From the NCBI GenBank assembly GCA_024276655.1, contig JAJRWU010000008.1:1-34551 (forward strand): DNA of 34,551 bases. The letters are read 5' to 3'. Below, piece by piece: positions 27,375-31,398 of this stretch (position 1 is the first letter of the stretch; the number at the start of each line of letters is the position of its first letter). This DNA comes from Planctomycetota bacterium. GTDB lineage: Bacteria; Planctomycetota; Planctomycetia; Pirellulales; Pirellulaceae. The notes below the pieces were generated by a model. It ran no database searches. It was not told where the DNA came from and worked only from the letters and a program-made list of their open reading frames with translations. A program made the translations under genes and the position numbers.

Positions 27375-27462
27375 AGTCCCGAATTTACATGCGGAGTTAA
27401 AAGCCCGGCAATTTCAAAATGCCGGGCTTTTTGAGTTACAACCGGGAACTTATTTCGGGACT
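27375..27462. repeat. Palindromic repeat, GCCCGGC family
   Basis: Outer arms AGTCCCGAA (27375-27383) and TTCGGGACT (27454-27462) are perfectly complementary. They enclose the core hairpin AAAAGCCCGGCA / GCCGGGCTTTTT (27399-27432), which also has terminator form and lies 30 bases after the DUF1501 stop. The layout matches the copies at 29881 and 31645. Confidence 0.8.
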
Positions 27463-27700
27463 ATTCCTAAGAATAGAGAGGAATCCTTTTCGAGATCGGA
27501 GTTTTCCTTTGCGTGGGCGCTCCTCTCGCAATGACGTGTTTTTCTTGGTAACGCCCGTTTTGCTTGCGGGCGGCAACTCACCGGCTATACTCCTGGTTGT
27601 TTCGCTCGTGCGGGCTTTTGACCGCCGGAGGCCGAAAACCTGGCTTGAATGCCGATCCTGGAAGCGGCCGCTCTCAATAACTCCGCACGGATTGTGCGTG

Positions 27701-27812
27701 TATTTCTGACCGCTGAAACGGAGAAATCCGTATTTCCCTAGTGAAGGCCCGCGGTTTTGTACGTGAACGCCGCTCTAGTTTCCAACCAGACATTTTTTTT
27801 GAGGGGAAGAAA
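27701..27812 (+). promoter_or_regulatory. Conserved leader of the first His-rich gene
   Basis: Bases 27701-27759 align almost throughout with 28928-28986 (shared blocks CTGACCG, TGAAA, GAAATCCG, TAGTGAAGGC, GCGGTTTTG), and both blocks end exactly 54 bases before the start codon of their gene. The segment ends with the ribosome-binding site GAGGGGAAGAAA, also identical in both. This implies a shared promoter or 5' leader kept after gene duplication. Confidence 0.5.
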
Positions 27813-28703
27813 ATGAGAAAGCTCCTACTGGCCGCCCTGTTGGGCGGCGTCGGCTTGTCGGTTTGTTCGGATGCCAACGCGCAATACCGCCGCAGCTACG
27901 GCCACAACAACAACAGCTACGGCCACAATTACGGGCACGATTATGTGCAATTCGGCCACACGCAACCGTCGTATCGTTTCGGCGCTCGGTCGCACATGGT
28001 TGCACTGTCGGGCCAGATGTATCAAAAAACGAAAGATATATGTTGGGAAATGCACCACCACTATCACCACATGCCGGGGTATCGGGATACCTACCGTGAA
28101 ATGTATCAGGTGATGCGAGACGCCAAACACGTCCACGATGAAGTGCATCGCCAGAACGGCGACTACGGTCATCATGTGGGCGCGGGCGACGACCACATCG
28201 CACGAGATCTTCACAACATGGATCGCCTGTTCCAACACGTTAAAGGCCATGTCGTTACCTGGACATCGCAAGGCCGCGCCTCCACACTCGCGATACAGAT
28301 GTTGCAGGTTGAATCGACGCTGCTGCACCTCATGCAAGACTACGGCGTGAGAAGCCAGTTACCTGTGGTGGCGCCGCAGCCGGGGTATGCTCCTCAGCCG
28401 GGAGCAGCGCCGCGGGGGCCTGTAGCTCCACAACCTGGTTATGCACCGCAGCCGGGTTATGCACCGCAGCCGGGAGCAGCGCCGCAGCCGGGAGCAGCGC
28501 CGCGGGGGCCTGTAGCTCCACAACCTGGTTATGCTCCGCAGCCGGGTTATGCACCGCAGCCGGGAGTGGCGCCGCAGCCGGGAGTGGCGCCGCAGGGGCC
28601 TGTCGCTCCGCAACCCGGTTTTGCACCGCGAGCGCCTGTTGCGCCGCAACAGGGAGTTGGCCCGGTGCCCGTGATTGCTCCTCCGCCCCTTCAGACGCCG
28701 TAA
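27813..28703 (+). CDS. Secreted His-rich protein with Pro/Gln/Gly repeat tail
   Basis: This encodes 296 residues from ATG 27813, 12 bases after GAGGGG. The signal MRKLLLAALLGGVGLSVCSDANA is followed by a His/Tyr/Asn-rich segment (YGHNNNSYGHNYGHDY), then a helical domain (about 50-180: FGARSHMVALSGQMYQKTKDICWEMHHHYHHMPGYRDTYREMYQVMRDAKHVHDEVH, later HIARDLHNMDRLFQHVKGHV). The tail (about 185-290) repeats PQPGYA and PQPGAAPRGPVA units. The His spacing suggests metal binding, but this is inference. The paralogue at 29040 shares the signal, the helical domain and a 38-base identical stretch (28324-28361 against its copy), so they arose by recent duplication. The function is unknown. A hairpin repeat follows at 28743. 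Confidence 0.8.
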   Translation: MRKLLLAALLGGVGLSVCSDANAQYRRSYGHNNNSYGHNYGHDYVQFGHTQPSYRFGARSHMVALSGQMYQKTKDICWEMHHHYHHMPGYRDTYREMYQVMRDAKHVHDEVHRQNGDYGHHVGAGDDHIARDLHNMDRLFQHVKGHVVTWTSQGRASTLAIQMLQVESTLLHLMQDYGVRSQLPVVAPQPGYAPQPGAAPRGPVAPQPGYAPQPGYAPQPGAAPQPGAAPRGPVAPQPGYAPQPGYAPQPGVAPQPGVAPQGPVAPQPGFAPRAPVAPQQGVGPVPVIAPPPLQTP

Positions 28704-28742
28704 CCTAGTTGCAGCCATGAATGCGCGACACGATGCACCCTC

Positions 28743-28774
28743 AGAAGCCCGGCTTTTGAAAAAGCCGGGCTTCT
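28743..28774 (+). terminator. Perfect hairpin after the first His-rich gene
   Basis: Arms AGAAGCCCGGCTTTT and its exact complement (15 bases each, GA loop) lie 39 bases after the stop codon. Only a short CTCTT follows, so terminator function is likely but not classical. It shares its sequence with the palindrome at 15273-15305. Confidence 0.55.
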
Positions 28775-28927
28775 CTTGTTGGAGCGACGATATTCTAAGC
28801 GACGGCTTTTTGAGCGACAAATTTTTAAGCGAGGATGTTGAGCACTGTGAACATGGTCGCTGTGCGCAACCGGTCGGCCGTAAGATTTGCCGGCGTTGCA
28901 ACGTGGACAGTGGACAGTTTCGGAAAA

Positions 28928-29039
28928 TATTCCTGACCGGTGAAATGCGGAAATCCGAATTGTATTAGTGAAGGCGGGCGGTTTTGAATTCCGTCCCGGC
29001 CGAAATTTCAATACCAACAATTCTTTTGAGGGGAAGAAA
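28928..29039 (+). promoter_or_regulatory. Conserved leader of the second His-rich gene
   Basis: This is the counterpart of 27701-27812. Shared blocks include CTGACCGGTGAAA, GAAATCCG and TTAGTGAAGGC, and the distance from the block to the start codon (54 bases) is the same. Between 28775 and 28927 there is nothing I can identify. Confidence 0.5.
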
Positions 29040-29804
29040 ATGAGAAAGCTTCTATTGGCCGCCCTGTTGGGGGGCGTCGGTATGTCGTTCAGTTCGGTTG
29101 CCAACGCGCAATTAGGCCACGGCAATATTTTGCACGGCAATATTTTGCACGGCAATGTCCAACATGGCAATGTCCAACATGGAAACGTGCATCATGGCAA
29201 CGTCCGACGTGGCAACGTCCAACATGGAAACGTGCATCATGGCAACGTCCGACGTGGCAACGTGCATCATGGTAACGGCCATGCGCAGCCAGTATATCAT
29301 TTCGGCGCTCGGTCACACATGGATTCACTGACCTCCGACTTGTATAAAATCGCGAAAGACATTTGTTGGGAAATGCACAACAGCTACCAGCACAATCCAG
29401 GATACCAGGACACCTACCGTGAAATGTATAAGTTGATGCAAGACGCCAAGCACACCTACGATTTGGTGCATCGGCAACGCTACCACCTGGGGAATCATGC
29501 GGCTGGAAACGCGGACCACATCGCGCGAGACCTTCACAATATGAACGGGCTGTTTCACCACGTGAAAGGCCACACCTTGTCGTGGACATCGCATGCTCAC
29601 GGCTCTCCGCTGACGATTAAAATGCTTCAGCTTGAGGCCACACTACTTCACCTCATGCAAGACTACGGCGTGAGAAGCCAGTTACCCGTAGCGGGCGCAC
29701 CGCCCGTGGGTTCGCCGGGTTTTGCGCCGCAACAAGGTTTTGCGCCGCAGCAGGGCGCCGGCCCATTGCCGGTGATTGCACCTCCGGCGGTGCAGGCGCC
29801 GTAA
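29040..29804 (+). CDS. Secreted His-rich protein with HGN pentapeptide repeats, paralogue of the preceding gene
   Basis: This encodes 254 residues with the same signal (MRKLLLAALLGGVGMSFSSVANA) and ribosome-binding site as its neighbour. After the signal lie about twelve tandem pentapeptides of the form H-G-N-V/I-x (residues about 26-80; bases about 29116-29280), encoded by 15-base repeats. The helical domain (about 85-215: FGARSHMDSLTSDLYKIAKDICWEMHNSYQHNPGYQDTYREMYKLMQDAKHTYDLVH) matches the paralogue. The Pro/Gln tail is much shorter (PQQGFAPQQGAGPLPVIAPP). The repeat expansion is therefore at the N-terminus here and at the C-terminus in the neighbour. Tandem HGN units could bind metal or form a structural rod, which is inference. 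Repeat number probably varies between strains. Confidence 0.8.
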   Translation: MRKLLLAALLGGVGMSFSSVANAQLGHGNILHGNILHGNVQHGNVQHGNVHHGNVRRGNVQHGNVHHGNVRRGNVHHGNGHAQPVYHFGARSHMDSLTSDLYKIAKDICWEMHNSYQHNPGYQDTYREMYKLMQDAKHTYDLVHRQRYHLGNHAAGNADHIARDLHNMNGLFHHVKGHTLSWTSHAHGSPLTIKMLQLEATLLHLMQDYGVRSQLPVAGAPPVGSPGFAPQQGFAPQQGAGPLPVIAPPAVQAP

Positions 29805-29880
29805 GGACCGCTTGGATATTTGAAGTCGTCCTCGGGAATGGGCAAAGTCATTTGTCAATAGTGAGTGGTCCTGAGGAACA

Positions 29881-29968
29881 GCCCCGAATTTACCTACCGC
29901 ATTCAAAGCCCGGCATTTTCAAAATGCCGGGCTTTTTTTGAGCTACCACCAGAAGCTTATTTCGGGAC
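29881..29968. repeat. Palindromic repeat, GCCCGGC family
   Basis: Outer arms CCCCGAA / TTCGGGA and the core AAAGCCCGGCATTTT / AAAATGCCGGGCTTT (29904-29939, with seven T) have the same layout as 27375-27462. It separates the second His-rich gene from the convergent minus-strand regulator gene, and the core can terminate transcription from the left. The remaining bases from 29805 to 30031 hold nothing else I can identify. Confidence 0.8.
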
Positions 29969-30031
29969 AGGTCTGTTCCGCGTGGTTTTTGACAGCAAGT
30001 GGGCGGATCTGCTGGTAAGGCGTCAATGTAT

Positions 30032-30757
30032 TCAGGCCGCCGCCTGGTCGGTCGATCTTTCGCTGTTGCAATCGGGTTTGCGTCGGTTGCTCGCCAGGGC
30101 GACGATTGTTTTCGATAGTCCTAGCAAATCGCCGAGGTAGACGAGCCATTCATCGACGGGCGCGCACTTGGCCATCTCTTCGTCGCGACTGGTCCCGAAG
30201 GGCTGGTAGAGCCACACACGGAGCCGCCGATCGAACAGACTCAGCTTTCGCGCAAGCAGCCAGCCGTTTTGATCGGGTAGGTCGATGTTCGCCACGACCA
30301 AGGTTGGCTCTAACCTGGGAAACAACTCCAAGGCTTCGGCGGCCGACTTGGCGCGCACCACGCGCATTCCCGACTCAGCCATGTCGGTCGCGATTCTCGC
30401 GAACACTTCGTCGCGGTGCTCGACTAAAATCGCCGTGGGCCGCGGGACGATTTCACCGCCATCGACTTCCAACGAAGGCTCAATATTTTCATCGGACAAC
30501 CGCCGGCAATACATTGAGGCGGCGCTTTTCGCAGCTCTTTCGTTTCTGATCGACCGCAGCAAGTTATCGGCGCGTTGCAATGCATCGCCACAATCCAGCT
30601 TTGAGGCGGTTGGTCCGTCATTGCCGGTTTCAGACACGACGAACTGCCCACCGCAATGGGCGCACTCCAACTCCCGATGGAGGTGTCGAAAATGAATCTC
30701 CACCGGACGACCGCAAACGGGGCAATCCAAGACAGCGTAAGGACGTTGCAGAATCAT
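30032..30757 (-). CDS. Zinc-ribbon protein with a degenerate receiver domain
   Basis: This encodes 241 residues from ATG 30757, which has a strong GGAGGAG site just upstream; longer frames to 30892 are unlikely. The N-terminus is a zinc ribbon with Cys12, Cys15 (CPVC) and Cys32, Cys35 (CAHC). A linker (about 45-105) is followed by a response-regulator receiver fold (about 107-215): TAILVEHRDEVFARIATDM, then LVVANIDLPDQNGWLLARKL and RLRVWLYQPFG. The phospho-accepting Asp is Asn157 and the acidic pocket is EH instead of DD, so standard phosphorylation is not expected. There is no DNA-binding output domain, so the zinc ribbon probably does the binding to nucleic acid or protein. Same-strand neighbour upstream is the Cys-rich gene, 161 bases away. 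Confidence 0.75.
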   Translation of the reverse strand: MILQRPYAVLDCPVCGRPVEIHFRHLHRELECAHCGGQFVVSETGNDGPTASKLDCGDALQRADNLLRSIRNERAAKSAASMYCRRLSDENIEPSLEVDGGEIVPRPTAILVEHRDEVFARIATDMAESGMRVVRAKSAAEALELFPRLEPTLVVANIDLPDQNGWLLARKLSLFDRRLRVWLYQPFGTSRDEEMAKCAPVDEWLVYLGDLLGLSKTIVALASNRRKPDCNSERSTDQAAA

Positions 30758-30918: not shown

Positions 30919-31398
30919 TCAGAGCCGAAAACAGCAGAGTTGGATACAGCGATCTGAACCGCTGCCCGCGAATGAGGCAACCGCAACTAGGGCGTTGGCC
31001 AGGGAGTCATTCGCACTGATCTCGATAGCGATCGTGGCAGCGCCGCGGAACGCCTCGAAAGTCGGCACAACCTGCAAGGAAGATTCGGTGTTTGGCGGCT
31101 CAGCCGCCGCGGGCGCCGAGTTTTTCTCACAGCCGCCGCGATCCTTGCAGGGTTTTGATTGCGAGCCGGAAGAGTTTTTCTCGCAACACGTCGGCTCGCG
31201 TCCGCTAGCACCGGTGCAGCAACTCGTTTGGGTTTGCGAGCAACAACCCGCCCCAGATCCGCTGGCTGCTTGAATCACACGGCCCTGACCGCCCAAACAG
31301 CAGCCGGTCGCGGCCAAAGACTGCTGAACCGGCAGCAACGTAATTGCCAGCAGGGCCAACGCCTTCGAGGTTCGTGAAAGTGAAGCTAGTCGGTTCAT
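30919..31398 (-). CDS. Secreted Cys-rich protein with paired cysteines
   Basis: This encodes 159 residues from ATG 31398. The signal segment MNRLASLSRTSKALALLAITLLPVQQSLAA is followed by four CC pairs (residues 33-34, 52-53, 60-61, 71-72), single cysteines at about 84 and 90, and a C-terminal CIQLCC. The spacer is Gly/Ser/Thr-rich and there is no catalytic motif. Paired cysteines with signal peptides suggest metal (for example copper) binding or a disulphide-stabilised exported protein; this is inference from composition only. An upstream ATG at 31440 would add 14 residues and bury the signal. Its orientation and 161-base gap suggest a possible operon with the zinc-ribbon/receiver gene downstream. 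Confidence 0.6.
   Translation of the reverse strand: MNRLASLSRTSKALALLAITLLPVQQSLAATGCCLGGQGRVIQAASGSGAGCCSQTQTSCCTGASGREPTCCEKNSSGSQSKPCKDRGGCEKNSAPAAAEPPNTESSLQVVPTFEAFRGAATIAIEISANDSLANALVAVASFAGSGSDRCIQLCCFRL

Follow-up and report, generated by a model that had tools for sequence, protein, structure and literature searches.

What keeps a block of leader sequence alike in front of two neighbouring genes when much of the sequence around it has drifted apart, and what do the genes so headed have in common? The question is raised by a tandem pair of genes for His-rich, secreted-looking proteins in a planctomycete of the family Pirellulaceae. The 34,551 nucleotides analysed, called the window throughout, make up contig C4 in a draft genome of 5.96 Mb (G000). 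An earlier note on this DNA had proposed that the shared leader reflects common regulation, for example by a metal or by envelope stress, and the present analysis bears on both halves of that proposal: the leader as a control element and the proteins as its clients.

Two paralogues with a common plan and different expansions

Gene 1 (27813–28703, + strand) encodes a protein of 296 residues, in which a signal peptide recognised by eye is followed by a short His/Asn-rich segment, a four-helix core (about 27972–28376, + strand) and a long Pro/Gln tail containing 2.8 copies of a 90-bp unit (28374–28629, + strand). Gene 2 (29040–29804, + strand) encodes 254 residues, with a signal peptide (again by eye), HGN pentapeptides built on a 15-bp unit (29118–29281, + strand), a four-helix core (about 29292–29696, + strand) and a short Pro/Gln tail. 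Histidine makes up 20 of 296 and 29 of 254 residues, and the whole proteins contain two cysteines and one, respectively. The cores are 65% identical as protein and agree at 308 of 417 positions as DNA, and the longest identical run between the genes is exactly 38 bases (28326–28363, equal to 29649–29686, + strand). The signal peptide, helical domain, 38-base identity and leader of about 59 bases, 54 bases from the start, were all described in the earlier note and are borne out here.

The same note described the repeat expansion as shifted from one end of the protein to the other. A different segment is indeed expanded in each gene, the tail in gene 1 and the HGN segment in gene 2, but both proteins possess a His-containing N-terminal segment as well as a Pro/Gln tail. 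Both repeat regions carry indels between the window species and its sister species (38 and 15 window bases unaligned). The genes upstream of the pair look to be of the DUF1501/DUF1553 type, which we take to be typical of planctomycetes.

A leader at a fixed distance from both starts

The leader block extends from −113 to −54 relative to the ATG (27700–27758 for gene 1 and 28927–28985 for gene 2, both + strand, with 47-base modelled cores at 27709–27755 and 28936–28982), and at this fixed offset 46 of its 59 bases are identical between the genes. The next 38 bases towards the ATG agree at 18 positions and the last 16, which include the ribosome-binding site GAGGGG, at all 16 (27797–27812 and 29024–29039, + strand). 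Upstream of the leaders, identity falls towards chance, with 3–5 matches in 20 from −200 to −150. The best 59-base window contains 47 matches, as against a maximum of 31 in 2000 Markov-shuffled pairs.

In the sister genome (G014), leader 2 is conserved at 59 of 59 positions and leader 1 at 56 of 59; with cores and intergenic sequence also 93–97% alike in the two genomes, the leader match across species alone says little. In the tree, each window paralogue pairs with its own G014 orthologue, so that the duplication is older than the split between the two species. The leader was also considered as coding sequence, there being an in-frame GTG 24 codons upstream in both window genes; this reading fails because gene 1 of the sister genome has one additional T, and because of the frame at a related gene in G032, a genome outside the genus that contains a candidate leader.

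A third copy before an unrelated His-rich gene

A covariance model was trained on five leaders, comprising the two loci in each of the two species and the G032 candidate, and was used to search 396 genomes of the order. It recovered, at E 2.4e-6 in each case, a third leader locus in G000 and the orthologous locus in G014, neither of which had been in the training set. In G014, this leader precedes genes for tandem secreted-looking proteins of 108 and 154 residues, which consist of HGYSG and HGYNSGN repeats and lack a helical core; in G000, the leader is followed by a repeat protein of the second type, of which the contig end leaves only the start. Leader 3 matches leader 1 at 36 of 47 positions and leader 2 at 35 of 47, and leaders 1 and 2 match one another at 36 of 47, so the copy at an unrelated gene is as close as that of a paralogue. 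With a model rebuilt to include this third locus, the three loci score at E about 1e-15 and the next match in G000 at E 0.25. The search of the genome for further leaders, suggested in the earlier note, has thus yielded a third copy before a non-homologous His-rich gene. As judged from these alignments, the leader is kept or recruited by non-homologous His-rich genes, and no other observation speaks as strongly for a control element common to these genes.

Within the HGYSG/HGYNSGN tandem at locus L173 (8039–8365 and 8758–9222), the leader stands before the first gene only, and much of the region from leader to start is common to both genes. Just upstream of leader 2 lie 2.3 copies of GTGGACA (28903–28918), and a similar GTGGAAAG is seen by eye at the same distance before leader 3 and not before leader 1.

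Beyond the three loci and the G032 training sequence, the rebuilt model, run on 12 genomes, gave its next matches at E of at least 0.09, and the order-wide search of 396 genomes returned nothing below E 0.002, four of its weak matches appearing chance-like on inspection. A class-wide model search (397 genomes) gave no further copy below E 0.006, and a strict pattern matched only the two window copies in the window genome. The idea of a widespread planctomycete motif was discarded, with 21 pattern matches against 43 for a reversed-pattern control in 20 genomes, and 12 against 29 in 241 genomes. Among nine loci inspected, only that in G032 precedes a gene of the helical-core family. It does not serve as independent proof: a model trained on sequence alone failed to recover it once it was left out of the training, and although only 2 of 5000 shuffles match leader 1 as well as it does, for leader 2 the figure is 573 of 5000. 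It is thus a candidate only, and uncertain as a copy outside the genus. Viral contigs scanned with the G032 leader gave 0 matches.

DNA and RNA readings of the leader

The leader could function as DNA, namely as a promoter with an overlapping operator for a dedicated sigma factor or regulator, and we regard this as having nearly an even chance of being correct. Such an arrangement might be exemplified by yTGACC(G) and C(g/t)wATT, separated by 16/17 bases, together with a direct repeat (n)GTGAA. When the alignments are compared by eye, neither the putative hexamers nor the distance between them varies among the three loci or between the two species, and the TGAA repeats, 28 bases apart in the leaders of the genus and 17 apart in G032, differ in separation by about one helical turn. 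However, the −10-like hexamer is a poor one for sigma-70, the hexamer pair is unlisted by the promoter scan, and conservation extends some 20 bases beyond the supposed −10, which, moreover, an 11-base deletion would remove in G032, where a sigma-54-like promoter lies upstream.

The leader could instead function as RNA, in the form of a 5′-UTR element controlling translation or transcript stability, a reading that we hold somewhat tentatively. The proposed fold consists of an outer stem (ACCGs/sCGGT) and an inner hairpin, with TGAA and GTGAAGGC unpaired. Four of its pairs are changed on both sides among six distinct leaders, a count reached in 13 of 500 shuffles, and every slid register scores below the true one; yet the structure was named on the very sequences that were scored, two of the four covarying pairs depend on the uncertain G032 sequence, and pair 5/43 is broken in three of the six. 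An earlier choice of hairpin gave only 56 of 500 shuffles, and the RNAalifold covariation term for the five first leaders was unfavourable (+0.72). The G032 candidate folds better than its shuffles (z −2.6) and, being downstream of a sigma-54-like promoter, would be transcribed, but the other five leaders folded alone are no stabler than shuffles (z −1.1 to +1.0). A sigma-70-type site on the + strand (28904–28931) runs up to the start of leader 2 and would place that leader at the 5′ end of a transcript, although chance alone would give 1.4 such sites in the stretch and no counterpart is listed at leader 1. Rfam 15, compared with window positions 27400–30100, produced two sub-threshold matches, neither of them on the leaders. 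Taken on its hexamer spacing and TGAA repeats, as seen by eye, the DNA reading seems about as good as the RNA reading.

A helical-core family in two branches

A profile of the core detects relatives in 40 of the 396 genomes of the order. In a tree of 49 rows (four rows that are fragments, repeats of a gene or lack a start Met having been dropped), the window genes belong to a branch A of 22 rows, one of them a long-branch outlier, and a sister branch B contains 27; support for the split is moderate (83/88), and long branches call for caution. AlphaFold, run from four sequences, predicts the core as four confident helices and has low confidence elsewhere, and a fold search returned generic four-helix bundles of many kinds with no outstanding match. 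Profile searches of the PDB were likewise set aside as indicating no relation, the best matches being helical proteins that are designed or coiled-coil-like, with a designed bundle in first place (E 6.7e-7). Neither window protein matches a Pfam or NCBIfam family above cut-off or a known metal-binding Pfam family, and a Pfam scan of 29 family members gave weak coiled-coil-like families (among the matches listed, 25 of 71 families).

Metal-exporter genes beside the relatives

Metal exporters, counted as CzcA-type RND proteins, adaptors, outer-membrane factors, CDF proteins and P-type (ZntA-type) ATPases, occur at 9 of 18 branch-A loci and at 0 of the 11 branch-B loci examined, out of 27 branch-B members. 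The 18 loci comprise every branch-A locus not from the window's genus, except the long-branch row L112. They are not all separate genomes: three share G032 (the positives L126 and L141, on one contig, and the negative L140) and two come from G329; L132, L137 and L138 are short stretches. The query proteins came from L125 and L126, both of which are among the nine positives, and an HtrA match, also found in branch-B locus L115, was excluded as an exporter. At the other nine branch-A loci no exporter was seen in the stretch examined, three of these stretches being short. All three RND proteins scanned exceeded the cut-off of TIGR00914 (CusA/CzcA), as did all three ATPases scanned that of TIGR01525 (heavy-metal P-type ATPase), and Pfam confirmed the CDF, adaptor and outer-membrane families where scanned.

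One of these neighbourhoods is a large metal island on contig C103 of G032 (L126 and L141). It combines a CzcA-type RND pump with two P-type ATPases (ZntA-type), a pair of CDF proteins and a ZIP-like protein that stays below the Pfam cut-off, and it also has two branch-A proteins and other small His-rich secreted-looking proteins. Across the nine exporter-bearing branch-A loci there are 17 His-rich proteins, four of which are the homologues themselves, as compared with one at the 11 branch-B loci.

By the test used on the relatives, the window contig contains no metal exporter. It does contain a gene for a receiver-like protein with an N-terminal zinc-ribbon-like segment (30032–30757, − strand), in which Response_reg scores 27.0 bits, below its cut-off of 30.2, Zn_ribbon_TFIIB is also below cut-off, and Pfam recognises no output domain. 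This protein is 52% identical over 132 residues (E 7e-35) to a homologue in the G032 metal island and is related (E 3e-13) to one in a Czc cluster (G379, L134), where a Cys-rich gene stands beside the receiver-like gene in the same order as in the window. The window's adjoining Cys-rich protein, secreted-looking (30919–31398, − strand), has no sequence similarity that we could find to its counterpart in the Czc cluster, and tblastn (E up to 1) gave it no match in the loci of 29 relatives. From its gene content, the window looks like an exporter-less fragment or satellite of a metal cluster.

Together, the exporter neighbours of the relatives and the receiver-like homologues in metal clusters lend indirect backing, by gene context, to the metal half of the earlier proposal. 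A metal role for the window proteins is likely, on circumstantial grounds.

Sigma-54-like promoters in the sister branch

The envelope-stress half of that proposal is backed only indirectly, by promoter-like sequences in the sister branch. A −24/−12 site was defined as TGGCACG-N4-TTGCW with at least 9 of 12 matches, the GG and TGC being fixed, within 300 bases of the gene. Such a sigma-54-like site precedes 27 of 51 homologue rows and 2 of 51 reverse-strand controls (the rows include three fragments or repeats of one gene, and two rows lacking a start Met were omitted). By branch, the count is 23 of 27 in branch B versus 4 of 22 in branch A, with L079, whose promoter was unscanned, entered as lacking the site. 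Neither window gene has a site of at least 9 of 12 within 300 bases; the bare pattern GG-N10-GC is present at three places before gene 1 and at none before gene 2. For 15 of the 27 genes with a site, an inverted repeat near GTCATCA-N2-TTGATGAC is best matched 106–119 bases upstream of the −24 element, the mean best score being 12.8 as against 10.9 in shuffles, with a consensus taken from the scored sequences. The upstream regions of sister-branch genes (L084–L108, L023 and others) may represent a planctomycete enhancer-binding-protein regulon.

These promoters invite the suggestion that the window proteins are envelope-stress chaperones resembling ZraP, Spy and CpxP rather than metal buffers. 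The inverted repeat found at 15 of the 27 genes with a site adds to it, as does a 2025 study that predicts stress and chaperone genes and ZraR as planctomycete sigma-54 targets (PMC12316311). The window genes themselves, however, are without a well-scoring sigma-54 site, and neither protein contains an LTxxQ motif or matches the Pfam families Metal_resist or LTXXQ up to E 1, and we consider a chaperone function unlikely.

It is more doubtful still that these are surface or adhesive structural proteins with an incidental metal context. A resemblance to cytadhesin P30 is seen in the tail of gene 1 (E 6e-8), at 33 bits where the cut-off is 40, but the match is confined to residues 185–282, that is, to the repeat tail, and is absent in gene 2, and so it is probably compositional. 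In addition, it is the core that is conserved in the family, and no metal exporters were seen as neighbours at the sister-branch loci examined.

A proposed metal-buffering mini-regulon

The explanation that we favour, and that we consider somewhat probable, is that of periplasmic metal-buffering proteins under a shared cis-element. Both genes would encode secreted, probably periplasmic, putative metal-binding proteins, each with a four-helix bundle bearing conserved histidines and flanked by expandable His-rich and Pro/Gln-rich low-complexity segments. Such proteins may bind or buffer a toxic divalent metal in the envelope, alongside Czc/ZntA/CDF exporters. A putative cis-element of about 55 bases (TATTyyTGACCGsTGAA ... 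TnGTGAAGGCnnGCGG) heads both genes and the third His-rich gene, and because the same element stands before all three, one regulator or signal might control them jointly. What the sequences show directly is the homology, the three copies of the leader and, for half of the branch's relatives, a setting among metal exporters; secretion, metal binding, the regulatory role of the leader and the nature of the signal are all things that we infer.

Common regulation gains support from a leader that is 78% identical between saturated flanks, from a duplication that predates the species split and from the third copy. The same observations, along with a spacer identical at only 18 of 38 positions, make it extremely improbable that the leader similarity is a mere residue of recent duplication, as the adjacency and paralogy of the genes might suggest; the earlier note had named recent duplication with no other genome copy as the finding that would speak against common regulation, and the genome presents neither. 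A further reading, conceivable although we would not put it as high as an even chance, makes this element of about 55 bases a previously undescribed cis-regulator, responsive to metal or envelope signals, of a mini-regulon of structurally unrelated His-rich repeat proteins; a planctomycete lineage would recruit the element to further repeat genes and expand the metal-binding repeats independently.

Comparison with known systems

SilE, PcoE and CopK are small secreted His-rich metal-binding proteins of the periplasm, encoded beside RND or P-type exporters in resistance operons. Relatives of the window genes similarly encode small secreted-looking His-rich proteins beside exporters. Unlike these systems, the window family has a conserved core of about 130 residues forming four helices, with expandable pentapeptide or Pro/Gln segments, and the window contig lacks an exporter; the likeness is one of description. 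Planctomycete CusA/CzcA RND clusters provide a parallel in gene context: metal-exporter genes are present at half of the loci of branch-A relatives, whereas the window locus has possible accessory genes only (receiver-like, Cys-rich and His-rich).

ZraP, CpxP and Spy are helical secreted proteins that share the metal and envelope theme. The window core is a generic four-helix bundle, and the sigma-54-like promoters of the sister branch recall ZraP, but the window pair is without LTxxQ, a Pfam match or a well-scoring sigma-54 site. The copper storage protein Csp is also a four-helix bundle (6q6b_B: VIA Z 11.4, rmsd 2.5, 114 residues aligned), a match at 4% identity that is within the range usual for any helical bundle; with two cysteines and one, the window proteins would not form a Cys-lined bundle.

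The sister branch would fit the sigma-54 regulon predicted for planctomycetes (PMC12316311); the window genes lack a well-scoring promoter of this kind. The passages of that study consulted here do not mention the helical-core family (PMC12316311), and literature searches on planctomycete sigma-54, His-rich proteins, heavy metals and cis-regulatory RNA turned up no title on the family or the leader. A family lacking a Pfam match would gain a testable role, that of metal buffering in the planctomycete envelope, and its gene neighbourhood ties it to Czc/ZntA/CDF clusters. The putative cis-element is compact and has three natural copies, which makes its regulation directly testable, and the sister branch, with probable sigma-54 control and a shared upstream inverted repeat, would provide a handle on a planctomycete stress regulon.

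A repeated hairpin between the genes

Between the two genes lies a hairpin with fully complementary 15-base arms (28743–28774, assigned to neither strand). It is possibly a terminator, and is absent from the list produced by the terminator scan. Another 36 places in the genome match it at 88–97% identity over some 35–45 bases, and hairpins of this type seem more uniform than ordinary terminators.
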